In this document: positions 45,044-49,494 of the stretch, one piece after another
Numbering within the stretch: the stretch's first letter is position 1
How the letters are laid out: every line of letters begins with the position of its first letter
Assembly (NCBI GenBank): GCA_001899635.1
Contig: MKVQ01000003.1
Location: forward strand, 62,001 to 126,000
Source of the DNA: Myxococcales bacterium 68-20
GTDB taxonomy: Bacteria > Myxococcota_A > Polyangia > Polyangiales > Polyangiaceae
Reading direction: 5' to 3'
Length of the DNA stretch: 64,000 nt
Notes under the pieces: model-generated
Told to the model about the DNA's origin: nothing
The model's input: the letters and a program-made list of their open reading frames with translations, nothing else
The model's database searches: none
Position numbers and translations under genes: made by a program

Positions 45044-45760
45044 TCAGGAGAGCGTCGCGCCGGCGCCGGCAGAGCCGGCCGTTCGCGAGCGAACGACCGC
45101 GTCGAACAGCTCGCGCCCGCTCGTCCCTCCGAGACACGCCTCGCTCATGCGCTCCGGGTGGGGCATGAGGCCGAGCACGTTCTTCTTCGGGCCGCCGTAG
45201 ATCCCGGCGATGTTCCGCACCGAGCCGTTCGGGTTTGCGCCTTCACTGACCTCGCCGCTCTCGTCGCAATAGAGGAGAGCCACCTGTCCCTCGCCGTCGA
45301 GGCGCGCGAGCACCTCGCTGGACGCCTGGTAGCGGCCCTCACCGTGCGCGATCGGGAGGCGAAGGACCTTGCCGTTCGAAGGCGAGAACGGCCCGTCGGC
45401 CGCGACCTTCACGAAGACGTCGCGGCACTCGAACCGGAGGTGGAGGTTCCGCGTGAGCGCCCCGGGGAGGAGCCCGCACTCGGTGAGGATCTGGAACCCG
45501 TTGCAGACTCCGAGGACGTAGCCGCCGCGCGCCGCGTGCTCCGAGATCGCCTTCATGATCGGTCCGACCTTCGCGATCGCCCCGCAGCGGAGGTAGTCGC
45601 CGTAGCTGAACCCACCCGGAATGGCGACGAGGTCGGTCCCCGCGGGCAGCTCGGTGTCCGTATGCCAGACCTTCGTGACCTTCGCGCCAGCGAGCTCGAG
45701 CGTACGGACCATCTCGGCATCGGCGTTGAGTCCAGGGAAGATGACGACGGAGGCCAACAT
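45044..45760 (-). CDS. purQ: Phosphoribosylformylglycinamidine synthase subunit PurQ
   Basis: 238 residues. The class I glutamine amidotransferase triad is visible: GYVLGVCNGFQ with Cys86, and LMPHPERMSEA with His and Glu. PurQ hydrolyses glutamine and passes ammonia to PurL in de novo purine synthesis. It is on the minus strand, with purL 1.3 kb away in the opposite direction and hypBA between them. No PurS is visible nearby, although one should exist with this PurL type. Confidence 0.94.
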   Translation of the reverse strand: MLASVVIFPGLNADAEMVRTLELAGAKVTKVWHTDTELPAGTDLVAIPGGFSYGDYLRCGAIAKVGPIMKAISEHAARGGYVLGVCNGFQILTECGLLPGALTRNLHLRFECRDVFVKVAADGPFSPSNGKVLRLPIAHGEGRYQASSEVLARLDGEGQVALLYCDESGEVSEGANPNGSVRNIAGIYGGPKKNVLGLMPHPERMSEACLGGTSGRELFDAVVRSRTAGSAGAGATLS

Positions 45761-45840: not shown

Positions 45841-46599
45841 CTACCGGACGAGCCAATCACACCATTCGTCGAGCCCGTCTTCGTGGACGACCGAGACCGG
45901 CAGCACCCGAAGGCGCGGGTTCACCCTGCGAACGTTCGCGATGCAGCGGGCGTCGTCGAAGGCGACATGAGGCGCGAGATCGGTCTTCGAGAGAACGAGC
46001 AGCTCGGCTGCCCGGAAGACGTGAGCGTACTTGAGGGGCTCATCCTCCCCCTCCGTGACCGACATCACGACGACCTTCGCGCGCTCGCCGAGATCGTAGA
46101 GGGCCGGACAGACGAGGTTGCCCACGTTCTCGACGACCACGACGCTCCGGGGCCTCGGCGCCATGGCGCTCAGGCCGTCGGCGACCATCGAGGCGTCGAG
46201 ATGACACCCCGGGCCGGTGTTGATCTGGAGTACCCGGCCTCCCGCGCGCTCGATCCGCTTCGCGTCGACGTCGCTCGTCTGGTCGCCTTCGATCACGACG
46301 AGCTGGACGTCGTCCCCCCGGAGACGCCGCAGCGTCGCCTCGACGAGCGAGGTCTTCCCGGCCTCGGGTGCACCGATGAGGTTGATCATCGTCACGTCGA
46401 TGTCGGAGAGGAGGCGCCGCGTCCGCGTGGCGATCTGGTTGTTCTTGGCGAGGAGCTCGCGCTCGATGTGCACGGTGCGCACCTCTCGACCCCAGCCGTA
46501 CCCGACACCGGGACGCGGGCCGCGATCGTCGTCATCGTCGTCGTGCTCGTGCACGAGCACGTGTCCGCTCTCGCCCCCGCAGCCGCACGACGTGCACAT
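45841..46599 (-). CDS. hypB: Hydrogenase/urease nickel-incorporation GTPase HypB
   Basis: 252 residues from ATG 46599, overlapping the hypA stop as TGATG. The N-terminus MCTSCGCGG holds the high-affinity nickel motif, followed by a His/Asp-rich stretch (HVLVHEHDDDDDD). The G domain has the P-loop GAPEAGKTS, then GDQTSDVDAKRI and KTDLAPH. ENVGNLVCPALYDLGE is the G-domain metal site. HypB delivers nickel to [NiFe]-hydrogenase with HypA. No hydrogenase structural gene is in the window. Confidence 0.92.
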   Translation of the reverse strand: MCTSCGCGGESGHVLVHEHDDDDDDRGPRPGVGYGWGREVRTVHIERELLAKNNQIATRTRRLLSDIDVTMINLIGAPEAGKTSLVEATLRRLRGDDVQLVVIEGDQTSDVDAKRIERAGGRVLQINTGPGCHLDASMVADGLSAMAPRPRSVVVVENVGNLVCPALYDLGERAKVVVMSVTEGEDEPLKYAHVFRAAELLVLSKTDLAPHVAFDDARCIANVRRVNPRLRVLPVSVVHEDGLDEWCDWLVR

Positions 46600-46832
46600 C
46601 AGCTGACCTCCACTTCCTCGAGCAAGAGCTCGTCTCCATCCGTCTCGACGATGTCGTGCGACGCGCCCTCGAGCGCCGTACCGACGGTGCAAGCGTCGAA
46701 GCAGAACCGCAGCGCCCGAGGCGACGCGCCCGCGCGCCGGCCGACGACGAGCCGCACCACGTGCACGCGTGCGCCGCCGGCCTCGCATGTCACGGCGGCA
46801 ACGACCTCATCCATCAGCGACAGCTCATGCAC
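46599..46832 (-). CDS. hypA: HypA lacking its zinc-ribbon
   Basis: 77 residues from GTG 46832, giving (M/V)HELSLMDEVV, the family N-terminus with nickel-binding His2. RALRFCFDACTVGTALEGA corresponds to the middle of HypA, and DGDELLLEEVEV to the last strand. The segment between them, which in HypA carries two Cys-pair zinc knuckles, is missing: the frame passes from EGASHDIVE straight to TDGDEL. Usual length is about 113-118 residues. The remaining fold matches HypA and it is translationally coupled to hypB, so it is probably expressed. Confidence 0.8.
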   Translation of the reverse strand: MHELSLMDEVVAAVTCEAGGARVHVVRLVVGRRAGASPRALRFCFDACTVGTALEGASHDIVETDGDELLLEEVEVS

Positions 46833-46930
46833 GGCGCCCCTCCCGCCAGACCACGAACAAGAAGCAGGCCTCGCGACGGCCGCTACGGTCGAGCCTGATC
46901 TCGCGTTCTTCCCCCACCCGCTCGAGCTCG

Positions 46931-46960
46931 CGCGAGAACGCGCGAGAACGCGCGAGAACG
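46931..46960. repeat. Three perfect copies of a 10-bp tandem repeat
   Basis: The decamer cgcgagaacg is repeated three times exactly, in the 274-nt gap between hypA and purL (divergent genes). It may be a slippage microsatellite or a repeated protein-binding site. Nothing else distinctive was seen in 46833-47106. Confidence 0.8.
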
Positions 46961-47106: not shown

Positions 47107-49494
47107 ATGACGACGGCGCATTCGGGCGCGAGGCCCGAGTTTCCTGGCGACCTTCCGATCACGCCGGAGGTCATCAAGCAGCACAAGCTCACACCGGAGG
47201 AGTACGGCGTCATCGAGCGCGCGCTCGGCCGCGCCCCGACGTACACGGAGCTCGGTGTCTTCTCCGTCATGTGGAGCGAGCACTGCAGCTACAAGTCGTC
47301 ACGCGTCCACCTCAAGCGCCTTCCGACGAAGGGCCCGCGAGTCATCCAGGGCCCCGGCGAGAACGCCGGCGTCGTCGACATCGGCGACGGCTTCGCCGCC
47401 GTCTTCAAGATGGAGTCGCACAACCACCCGAGCTTCATCGAGCCCTACCAGGGCGCGGCGACGGGCGTGGGCGGCATCCTCCGCGACGTCTTCACGATGG
47501 GCGCAAGGCCCATCGCCGGGCTGAACTCGCTGCGCTTCGGACGCCCCGATCACCCGCGCACGCCGGAGCTCCTCCGCGGCGTCGTCGCCGGCATCGGCGG
47601 ATACGGCAACTCGATCGGCGTTCCCACTGTCGGCGGCGAGGTTCAGTTCGATCCGAGCTACGACGGCAACATCCTCGTCAACGCGTTCACGTGCGGCGTT
47701 GCTCGCACCGACCGCATCTTCTACGGCCGCGCCGCGGGCATCGGTAACCCGATCCTCTACATCGGCGCGAAGACCGGACGCGACGGCATCCACGGCGCGA
47801 CGATGGCCTCCGACGAGTTCGGAGAGGGCAAGGAAGGCAAAGGCGAGCTCGCGACCGCCAGCTCGATCAAGAAGGGCGTGCGCTCGACGATGCAGGTCGG
47901 CGATCCCTTCATGGGGAAGCTGTTGATCGAGGCGTGCCTCGAGCTCTTCGCCGCAGACGTGCTCGAAGGCATCCAGGACATGGGCGCTGCCGGCCTCACG
48001 TCGTCGAGCGTCGAGATGGCGGGACGCGCTGAGAACGGCCTCGAGCTCGATCTCGACAAGATCCCGCGCCGCGCGCGGAAGATGACGCCGTACGAGATCC
48101 TGCTCAGCGAATCGCAGGAGCGCATGCTCCTCGTCGCGAAGCGGGGCCGCGAGGCGGAGGTCTTCGCGATCTGCAAGAAGTGGGACCTCGATTGCGCGGT
48201 CGTCGGACGTGTGACCGACACGAAGCGGTGGGTCGTCACGGCAACGCCGGGTTACGACCCGCTCGACGGGACGCCGCCGCAGGGCGAGAAGAAGGTCTGC
48301 GCCGACATCCCGGTCCCCTCGCTCACCGATGCCGCGCCGGTCTACGACCGCCCGCGCAAGCCCGCCCCCGCGCGCGCCGACGTCGCCGTCCCGGAGACGA
48401 CCGATCCGCGCGCCGACCTCCTCGCGCTCCTCGCGTCTCCCAATGTGGGCTCTCGCGCGTGGATCTGGCGCCAGTACGATCACATCGTCCGCGGTGGCAC
48501 CGTCGTCCGCCCCGGCTCCGACGCCGCCGTGGTGCGCGTCCCCTGCGAGCGGGACGGCAACGTGGTGATGAAGCACCTCGCGTTCGCGGTCGACTGCAAC
48601 GGCCGTTACGTCGAGCTCTCCGCCGAGGAAGGCGCCAAGATGGCGATCGCCGAGGTGTGCCGCAACCTGGTCTGCTCCGGCGCGGAGCCGATCGGCATCA
48701 CCGACTGCCTCAACTTCGCGAGCCCCGAGGATCCGGGGACGATGGACCAGTTCGCACGCGCCATCGACGGGCTCGGAGCGGCGTGTCGCGCGCTCGACGT
48801 CCCGATCGTGAGCGGCAACGTGAGCCTCTACAACGAGACCACCGACGCGTCCGGACGGAAGCCCATCCTCCCCACGCCCACCGTCGCGGCCGTCGGCCTC
48901 GTCCGCCAGCCCGAGGACATCGTCACGCAGTGGTTCGCGCGCGAAGGCGACGTCGTGATCCTCCTCGGCGAGGCCGCTCCGTCGCCCCGCGACGGGCTCG
49001 GCGGGAGCGAATACCAGGCGATGAAGACCGGCAAGCTCGGAGGACCGGCGCCGCGGATCGATCTCGATGCCGAGGTCCGCCTCCAGAAGCTGGTCCTCGA
49101 GCTCGCCCGCGCCCACGTCCTCTCGAGCGCACACGATTCCGCCGACGGCGGGCTCGCCGTTGCCCTCGCCGAGTGCTGCAGCACCGGTCCGAACCTCGTC
49201 GGCGCCGACATCGAGCTCCCCACCACGCAAACGGAGGGAGCCGCCGCCGCCACGAGCGCGCTCTTCGGCGAAGCGCCGTCGCGCGTCGTCGTCTCCACGA
49301 GCCCGTCGGCCGAAGCCGACGTGCTCCAGCGCGCGAGCGCGGCGGGCGTCCCGGCGCGGGTCATCGGTCGGACCACCGCCGCCGGCCCCGCGGCGAAGCT
49401 CGCCATCCGCGCCGGAGCCCACGCGCTCGACGTGGAGGCGTCGGAGCTCCGCGCAGCGCGCGAGCGCTGCCTCTCCGGCATCGTCGGGACCTGA
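47107..49494 (+). CDS. purL: Phosphoribosylformylglycinamidine synthase subunit PurL
   Basis: 795 residues, the small PurL type that works with separate PurQ (and PurS). [14 protein letters not shown] holds the conserved His, [15 protein letters not shown] the ATP/metal site, GVGGILRD follows, and the C-terminal half repeats the AIRS-like fold ([17 protein letters not shown]). It uses ATP and ammonia from PurQ to convert FGAR to FGAM. A linker near 400-440 is Pro/Arg-rich. The start ATG is followed by a short N-terminal extension ([11 protein letters not shown]). Confidence 0.95.

Follow-up and report, generated by a model that had tools for sequence, protein, structure and literature searches.

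A zinc site formed by two cysteine pairs is attributed to all HypA proteins in a review (PMC7055735), and its purpose may be structure, sensing or docking. The stretch of DNA analysed here, 64,000 nucleotides from contig MKVQ01000003.1 of Myxococcales bacterium 68-20 (hereafter the window), encodes a HypA from which the zinc ribbon is missing, and thus raises the question of whether such a gene can give rise to a working nickel chaperone, or whether it is an artefact or a remnant. Our reading, to which we assign a probability of a little under 0.6, is that the gene encodes a real and selectively kept HypA derivative, which together with HypB would form a working, zinc-free nickel chaperone.

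A short hypA gene and its deletion

The gene lies on the reverse strand, from a GTG start at 46832, immediately preceded on its 5' side by the Shine-Dalgarno-like GGGAGGGG, to a TGA at 46601-46599, and encodes 77 residues. Its product scores above the curated threshold of the Pfam HypA model (PF01155; 48.2 bits, cut-off 28.9), through a match limited to residues 1-65, equivalent to profile positions 1-68 of 112, and below that of the TIGR00100 equivalog (36.8 bits, cut-off 88.1). No CxxC occurs in the protein, which is therefore devoid of a zinc site of two cysteine pairs. The nearest full-length HypA proteins found, those of a Kofleriaceae bacterium (L136) and a Myxococcales bacterium (L137), are 109 residues long and 53-56% identical to the short form; relative to them, 32 codons are absent in frame, and all ribbon cysteines fall within these. 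A codon listing against both relatives places the junction between codons 65 and 66 (46637..46642, reverse strand), where the in-frame sequence is EGASHDIVETDGDELLLEEVEVS. L137 thus reads DIV-MIP, followed by 32 residues that include CRSC and CVC, and then GDELRLKEVEV, while the window reads DIV-ETD-GDELLLEEVEV. The earlier note had described a HypA with its ribbon removed at 46599-46832, split between EGASHDIVE and TDGDELLLEEVEV, and the reading of the junction confirms these coordinates exactly and the split as drawn. Its description of a clean in-frame loss within a coupled hypA-hypB pair is likewise borne out by the 32 missing codons and by the TGATG overlap between the two genes, as is that of a retained N-terminal histidine and final strand by the MHE start and the presence of the last strand. 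A second, full HypA, for which the earlier note had suggested looking, was not found in the window's genome (G000; 11.9 Mb, 98.4% complete, a draft of 52 contigs), where the search gave a single HypA match; the profile being the longer of the two, this match runs on beyond the TGA of the gene.

By its genus label, the window's organism is a Labilithrix. HypA matches were obtained in eight of the 12 genomes of the genus, ribbon-bearing in five (G001, G005, G006, G008 and G010) and short in G000, in G003 (L134, Labilithrix sp. isolate ACE_MYX5) and in G004 (L135, Labilithrix sp. isolate RYN_370). The three short Labilithrix proteins all have 77 residues, share the MHE N-terminal motif (GTG being read as Met) and show the identical 32-codon gap with respect to L136 and L137, their pairwise identities being 79, 66 and 62%. 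An assembly or sequencing deletion in an otherwise normal HypA would have nothing in its favour apart from the genomes being drafts; since L134 and L135, which come from other isolates, display the same gap within sequence that has diverged on both sides, a deletion confined to a single assembly is excluded, and the probability of an artefact is negligible. A contig scan for further short HypA of the Labilithrix type, narrow in that a locus had to contain either of two peptide patterns, covered 44 loci. CxxC is missing from L134 and L135 and occurs once or twice in each of the remaining 42, one of which, L148, ends after 86 residues. The second zinc knuckle is CxC instead of CxxC in L136, L137, L009 (G005), L008 (G014), L012 (G016) and L017 (G031). 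It is possible that such a knuckle, in the full-length HypA proteins whose sequences are nearest to the short form, represents a step towards loss.

The short gene has evolved under purifying selection. The dN/dS of hypA is 0.25 between G000 and G003, 0.28 between G000 and G004 and 0.54 between G003 and G004, with a synonymous excess in the first of these comparisons (Fisher p 9e-5, from rounded counts), and the frames of both hypA and hypB are open in all three short-form genomes. Between G000 and G003, the corresponding values are 0.32 for hypB, 0.17 for purQ and 0.11 for purL; hypA and hypB, by this measure, evolve faster than the two neighbouring purine genes.

The AlphaFold model of the window's HypA has a mean pLDDT of 93.2, and the alignment behind it consists of 27 rows, three short and 24 full-length HypA. 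In VIA-align 2 comparisons, 77 of the 77 model residues superpose on Thermococcus kodakarensis HypA (3a43, chain residues 1..134) at 1.1 Å, with a Z of 13.7; the deviation from the HypA of the HypAB-Ni complex 5aun is 1.4 Å, and Helicobacter pylori HypA (6g81) is matched with a Z of 13.5. Rows from rank 9 down, with Z below 7, were taken as common arrangements. In the predicted structure, the ribbon alone is missing, and nickel domain and returning strand both appear whole, which is a matter of consistency and not independent proof, since HypA relatives were used in building the model and the HypA-like fold is thus not an independent result.

According to the above review, the nickel site of the T. 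kodakarensis HypAB complex includes His98 of HypA, which completes it (PMC7055735). Alignments place residue 98 in a stretch without counterpart in the short HypA, which would consequently need other nickel ligands. This missing stretch speaks for the idea that the short HypA is no longer a nickel carrier, and merely modulates the GTPase activity of HypB or buffers metal; the retention of Met1, His2 and Glu3 in all three short forms, and likewise in the types 2 and 3 described below, argues against it, and we find it very improbable. In the zinc-free chaperone that we favour, these three residues would be the ones that bind nickel.

Genomic setting and candidate nickel clients

The hypB gene (45841..46599, reverse strand; 252 residues) overlaps hypA by one base, the TGA of hypA and the ATG of hypB together forming TGATG, and its product matches TIGR00073 with 237.5 bits (cut-off 121.2). 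Nucleotide and metal motifs are retained in this HypB, with the exception of a P-loop in which Glu takes the place of Gly (GAPEAGKT); G003 and the other HypB rows compared have Gly or Ser at this site. The N-terminal CxxCGC nickel motif, which reads MCTSCGC in the window and MCTTCGC in G004, is missing from the HypB of G003 (L134; MCTTRGPEGE). Downstream of hypB lies purQ (45044..45760, reverse strand), named from its sequence and from its position beside purL, and divergent from hypA lies purL itself (47107..49494, forward strand). Three head-to-tail copies of GCGCGAGAAC occupy 46930-46959, between hypA and purL.

Copies of purQ and purL that are 86 and 91% identical adjoin hypB and hypA in G003, and hypAB is therefore found between purL and purQ in both genomes. 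G003 is the sole relative found with hypAB at this place, and it carries the same short form; the full HypA that the earlier note had considered might occupy the locus in relatives was not encountered. A search for purQ gave matches in nine of ten other genus members, G006 being the one without. In G002, G004, G008 and G010, purL and purQ lie close together and hypAB is absent between them, and in G007, where about 610 bases separate the two genes, this gap gave no match to hypAB. The 1,500 bases read in G005 and G009 do not include purL, and the purQ matches of G001 and G011 are distant (37-38% identity). Since four genus members have purL and purQ close together without hypAB, the position of hypAB most likely goes back to an insertion upstream of purQ, in an ancestor of G000 and G003.

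In G004, the short hypA gene is part of a single stretch that encodes HypF, HypC, HypD, HypE, a maturation protease, HypB, the short HypA, and the small and large subunits of a hydrogenase. The large subunit is above the Pfam cut-off (PF00374) and carries the RICGIC and DPCLPC motifs, and the two subunits are below the cut-offs of the hydrogenase models that they match. No HypA match besides the short form was found in G004, a genome that is 72% complete and in which a full HypA may thus have escaped detection. The full-length HypA genes of L136 and L137 also sit in hydrogenase clusters, and their hypA-hypB order is the same as in the window; compared with the large subunit of G004, those encoded in the two clusters show 78 and 80% identity. 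By contrast, searches of 58 genomes (26 positive in each) detected neither the hydrogenase large subunit (PF00374) nor HypD in G000 and G003, and the HypF matches obtained there were weak, partial and below a cut-off exceeded in three of five genomes; large subunit, HypD and HypF, all present in G004, are thus jointly not found in G000 and G003. Given that the short HypA of G004 is located in a hydrogenase cluster that resembles those of L136 and L137, loss of the ribbon most likely arose beside a hydrogenase and preceded loss of the latter, and in the window a zinc-free chaperone is most likely decoupled from hydrogenase.

These absences also form the basis of the main rival explanation, in which hypAB is a leftover that persists after loss of the hydrogenase, ribbon loss having been an early step in its decay. 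Decay would be in line with the changed P-loop of the window's HypB, with the lost N-terminal motif of the G003 HypB and with the higher dN/dS of hypA and hypB as compared to purQ and purL. The two HypB changes, along with the dN/dS of 0.54 between the hypA genes of G003 and G004, are at the same time among the points that count against the chaperone reading, as is the lowered hydrogenase activity of H. pylori ribbon-cysteine mutants (see below). Decay is less easily reconciled with the presence of the same deletion beside complete-looking hydrogenase genes in G004, with frames of both genes that are open in all three genomes, with G000-G003 dN/dS values of 0.25 (hypA) and 0.32 (hypB), and with the maintenance of the pair at a shared, non-hydrogenase locus in two genomes whose HypA and HypB proteins are 71-79% identical; we regard it as unlikely. 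The zinc-free nickel chaperone at which the earlier note had hinted is thus upheld in part: the MHE start, a HypB that looks intact and a hydrogenase-linked homologue in G004 agree with such a role, which decay continues to rival. The undetected hydrogenase, HypD and HypF, the placement between purL and purQ, and the recurrence of ribbon loss in the phylum (see below) go beyond what that note contained.

If hypAB does act as a chaperone in G000 and G003, the question of its client arises. With the hydrogenase large subunit, HypD and HypF not found, and with hypAB located between purL and purQ, the pair would serve another client or buffer nickel. Three kinds of nickel enzyme were sought in the window's genome, and urease is the sole one found; its alpha subunit is present in G000 and G003 (eight of ten genomes positive), and it would be the best candidate. 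Nickel superoxide dismutase was matched in one of ten genomes (G005) and in neither G000 nor G003, in a search of unproven sensitivity (none of 14 control genomes positive), and it was set aside as a client.

A more restrictive proposal holds that hypAB simply took over nickel delivery to a urease that is devoid of UreE in this genus. The urease alpha subunit of G000 and G003 is in keeping with it, as are UreE_C searches, which were negative in all nine genus members (one of 14 control genomes positive), and the finding that HypA of H. pylori serves urease (PMC5557546). However, G007, G009 and G011 possess urease with neither a UreE nor a HypA match, which indicates that urease here does not require HypA, and weakens the replacement of UreE as a sufficient reason for hypAB. 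In addition, H. pylori HypA works with UreE, as stated in the review (PMC7055735), and hypAB, on contig C3 of G000, is unlinked to urease, on C22. Urease loci of the genus include L185 (G000, C22) and L187 (G011). As the whole explanation, urease seems to us even less likely than decay.

Loss of the ribbon elsewhere in the phylum

HypA matches were found in 74 of 183 genomes of the order, and ten of them stop where the nickel domain does, or close by. Each of the ten was read and proved to be without CxxC; they correspond to G000, G003 and G004 plus seven proteins of a distinct sequence type, type 3 (G044, G045, G070, G075, G141, G171 and G177). The other matches read in the order comprise 22 full-length HypA and G132, which is no HypA. 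Type 3 proteins (MHEHGLM; loci L091, L178, L179, L181, L182, L183 and L239) have 82-95 residues and no CxxC, and their genes adjoin hypF or hypC-hypD-hypE in seven of seven cases, with a hydrogenase large subunit in four of the stretches (G044, G075, G171 and G177). HypB was matched in none of the seven stretches read, and a genome-wide search for it in G044 and G045 was also negative. Across the phylum, the short-form profile matched 58 of 377 genomes, and 13 matches besides the window reach as far as position 76 or 77. CxxC is absent from all eight that were read, which make up type 2 (MHEAKLC or alike), in which Cys7 is conserved. Type 2 genes lie between the large subunit and hypB-hypC-hypD in L234, L235, L236 and L237; in the stretches read, G283, G196, G187 and G291 each have HypB, HypC and HypD together with the large subunit, accompanied by HypE and HypF in all but G291. 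Overall, types 2 and 3 span 80-95 residues and keep the MHE start; G476, read in the phylum survey, was left out of this sequence comparison. For three of their large subunits, the best-scoring models are those of NAD(P)-linked sulfhydrogenases, whose cut-offs are not reached.

Trees of HypB and HypD bear on the number of losses. HypB joins G000 to G003 (100/99) and groups both with G004, L136 and L137, at 98/95 in a first tree without G033, G034 and G055, and at 82/94 in a second tree with those rows. From its identical place, we infer that the Labilithrix deletion was most likely a single event, ancestral to some members of the genus; the HypB tree does not settle a clade of the short forms. 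In the HypD tree, made of 22 of the 31 listed rows after a motif filter had dropped nine, G004 groups with L136 and L137 (87/81), and G005 joins them in a wider fork (98/97). A clade that unites Labilithrix with type 2 is rejected on HypD (p-AU 0.0003) and not formally rejected on HypB (p-AU 0.052), while a clade of all short forms is rejected on HypD (p-AU 0.00007). This rejection, which discards a single origin of all ribbon-less HypA, supports the loss of the ribbon and its zinc site at least twice in the phylum. Types 2 and 3 as one clade are also rejected on HypD (p-AU 0.0002), the obstacles being mainly G019, G037 and G044; once G044 is left aside, a single fork (98/93) unites both types and G037, a genome without a HypA match, and the two types may go back to one shared loss. 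G037 (L075, L050) has a hydrogenase large subunit and a HypD, the latter placed among type 3 in the tree, and gave no HypA match; its HypA may be too diverged for detection.

A candidate zinc-free chaperone among known HypA proteins

The chaperone reading entails the following course of events. A clean, in-frame deletion of 32 codons would have removed the zinc ribbon in an ancestor common to some of the Labilithrix genomes, with HypB as the GTPase partner of the shortened protein, and the resulting two-protein chaperone would hand nickel over without the ribbon, whose contribution, be it sensing, docking or an extra ligand, would be dispensed with. In G004, the short HypA would load the [NiFe] hydrogenase encoded alongside. 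Only tentatively do we extend this to a broader proposal, namely that zinc is inessential to HypA, as at least two losses with continued hydrogenase loading would imply, and that the Labilithrix hypAB pair left its hydrogenase and moved beside a purine gene, to provide zinc-independent nickel delivery for urease or another client.

No description of a conserved, natural HypA that lacks the zinc ribbon was found in the literature searched, most subscription papers lying outside that search. Several of these proteins are encoded beside hydrogenase genes; they make the role of the zinc site testable against close full-length relatives such as that of L137, while hypAB in genomes without a detected hydrogenase offers a handle on the service that HypA and HypB may render to other nickel enzymes.

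With the HypA family at large (PF01155, TIGR00100), the hydrogenase nickel metallochaperones, the window's protein shares the N-terminal MHE, the nickel domain, the last strand and the neighbouring HypB; it differs in the absence of the CxxC..CxxC ribbon, in a score below the TIGR00100 cut-off and in a genome where no hydrogenase was found. All 77 residues of its model align with T. kodakarensis HypA (3a43, 5aun, 5yxy), which, unlike it, has a zinc loop separating the parts that align and contributes His98 to the HypAB nickel site. H. pylori HypA matches the fold of the model and serves both urease and hydrogenase (PMC5557546); in contrast to the window's protein, it needs its zinc-site cysteines for full activity (PMC5557546) and has UreE as a partner (PMC7055735). 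According to the former source, hydrogenase activity in H. pylori falls to 9-60% when ribbon cysteines are mutated, and to 12% when hypA is disrupted (PMC5557546). Types 2 (MHEAKLC) and 3 (MHEHGLM) resemble the window's HypA in their MHE start and in the absence of CxxC, and differ from it in sequence type and in the hydrogenases alongside, type 3 also in the absence of HypB from the stretches read. The HypA proteins of L136 and L137 have the same hypA-hypB gene order as the window, and are set apart from its short form by 32 additional residues, by a CxxC..CxC ribbon and by their place within hydrogenase clusters.
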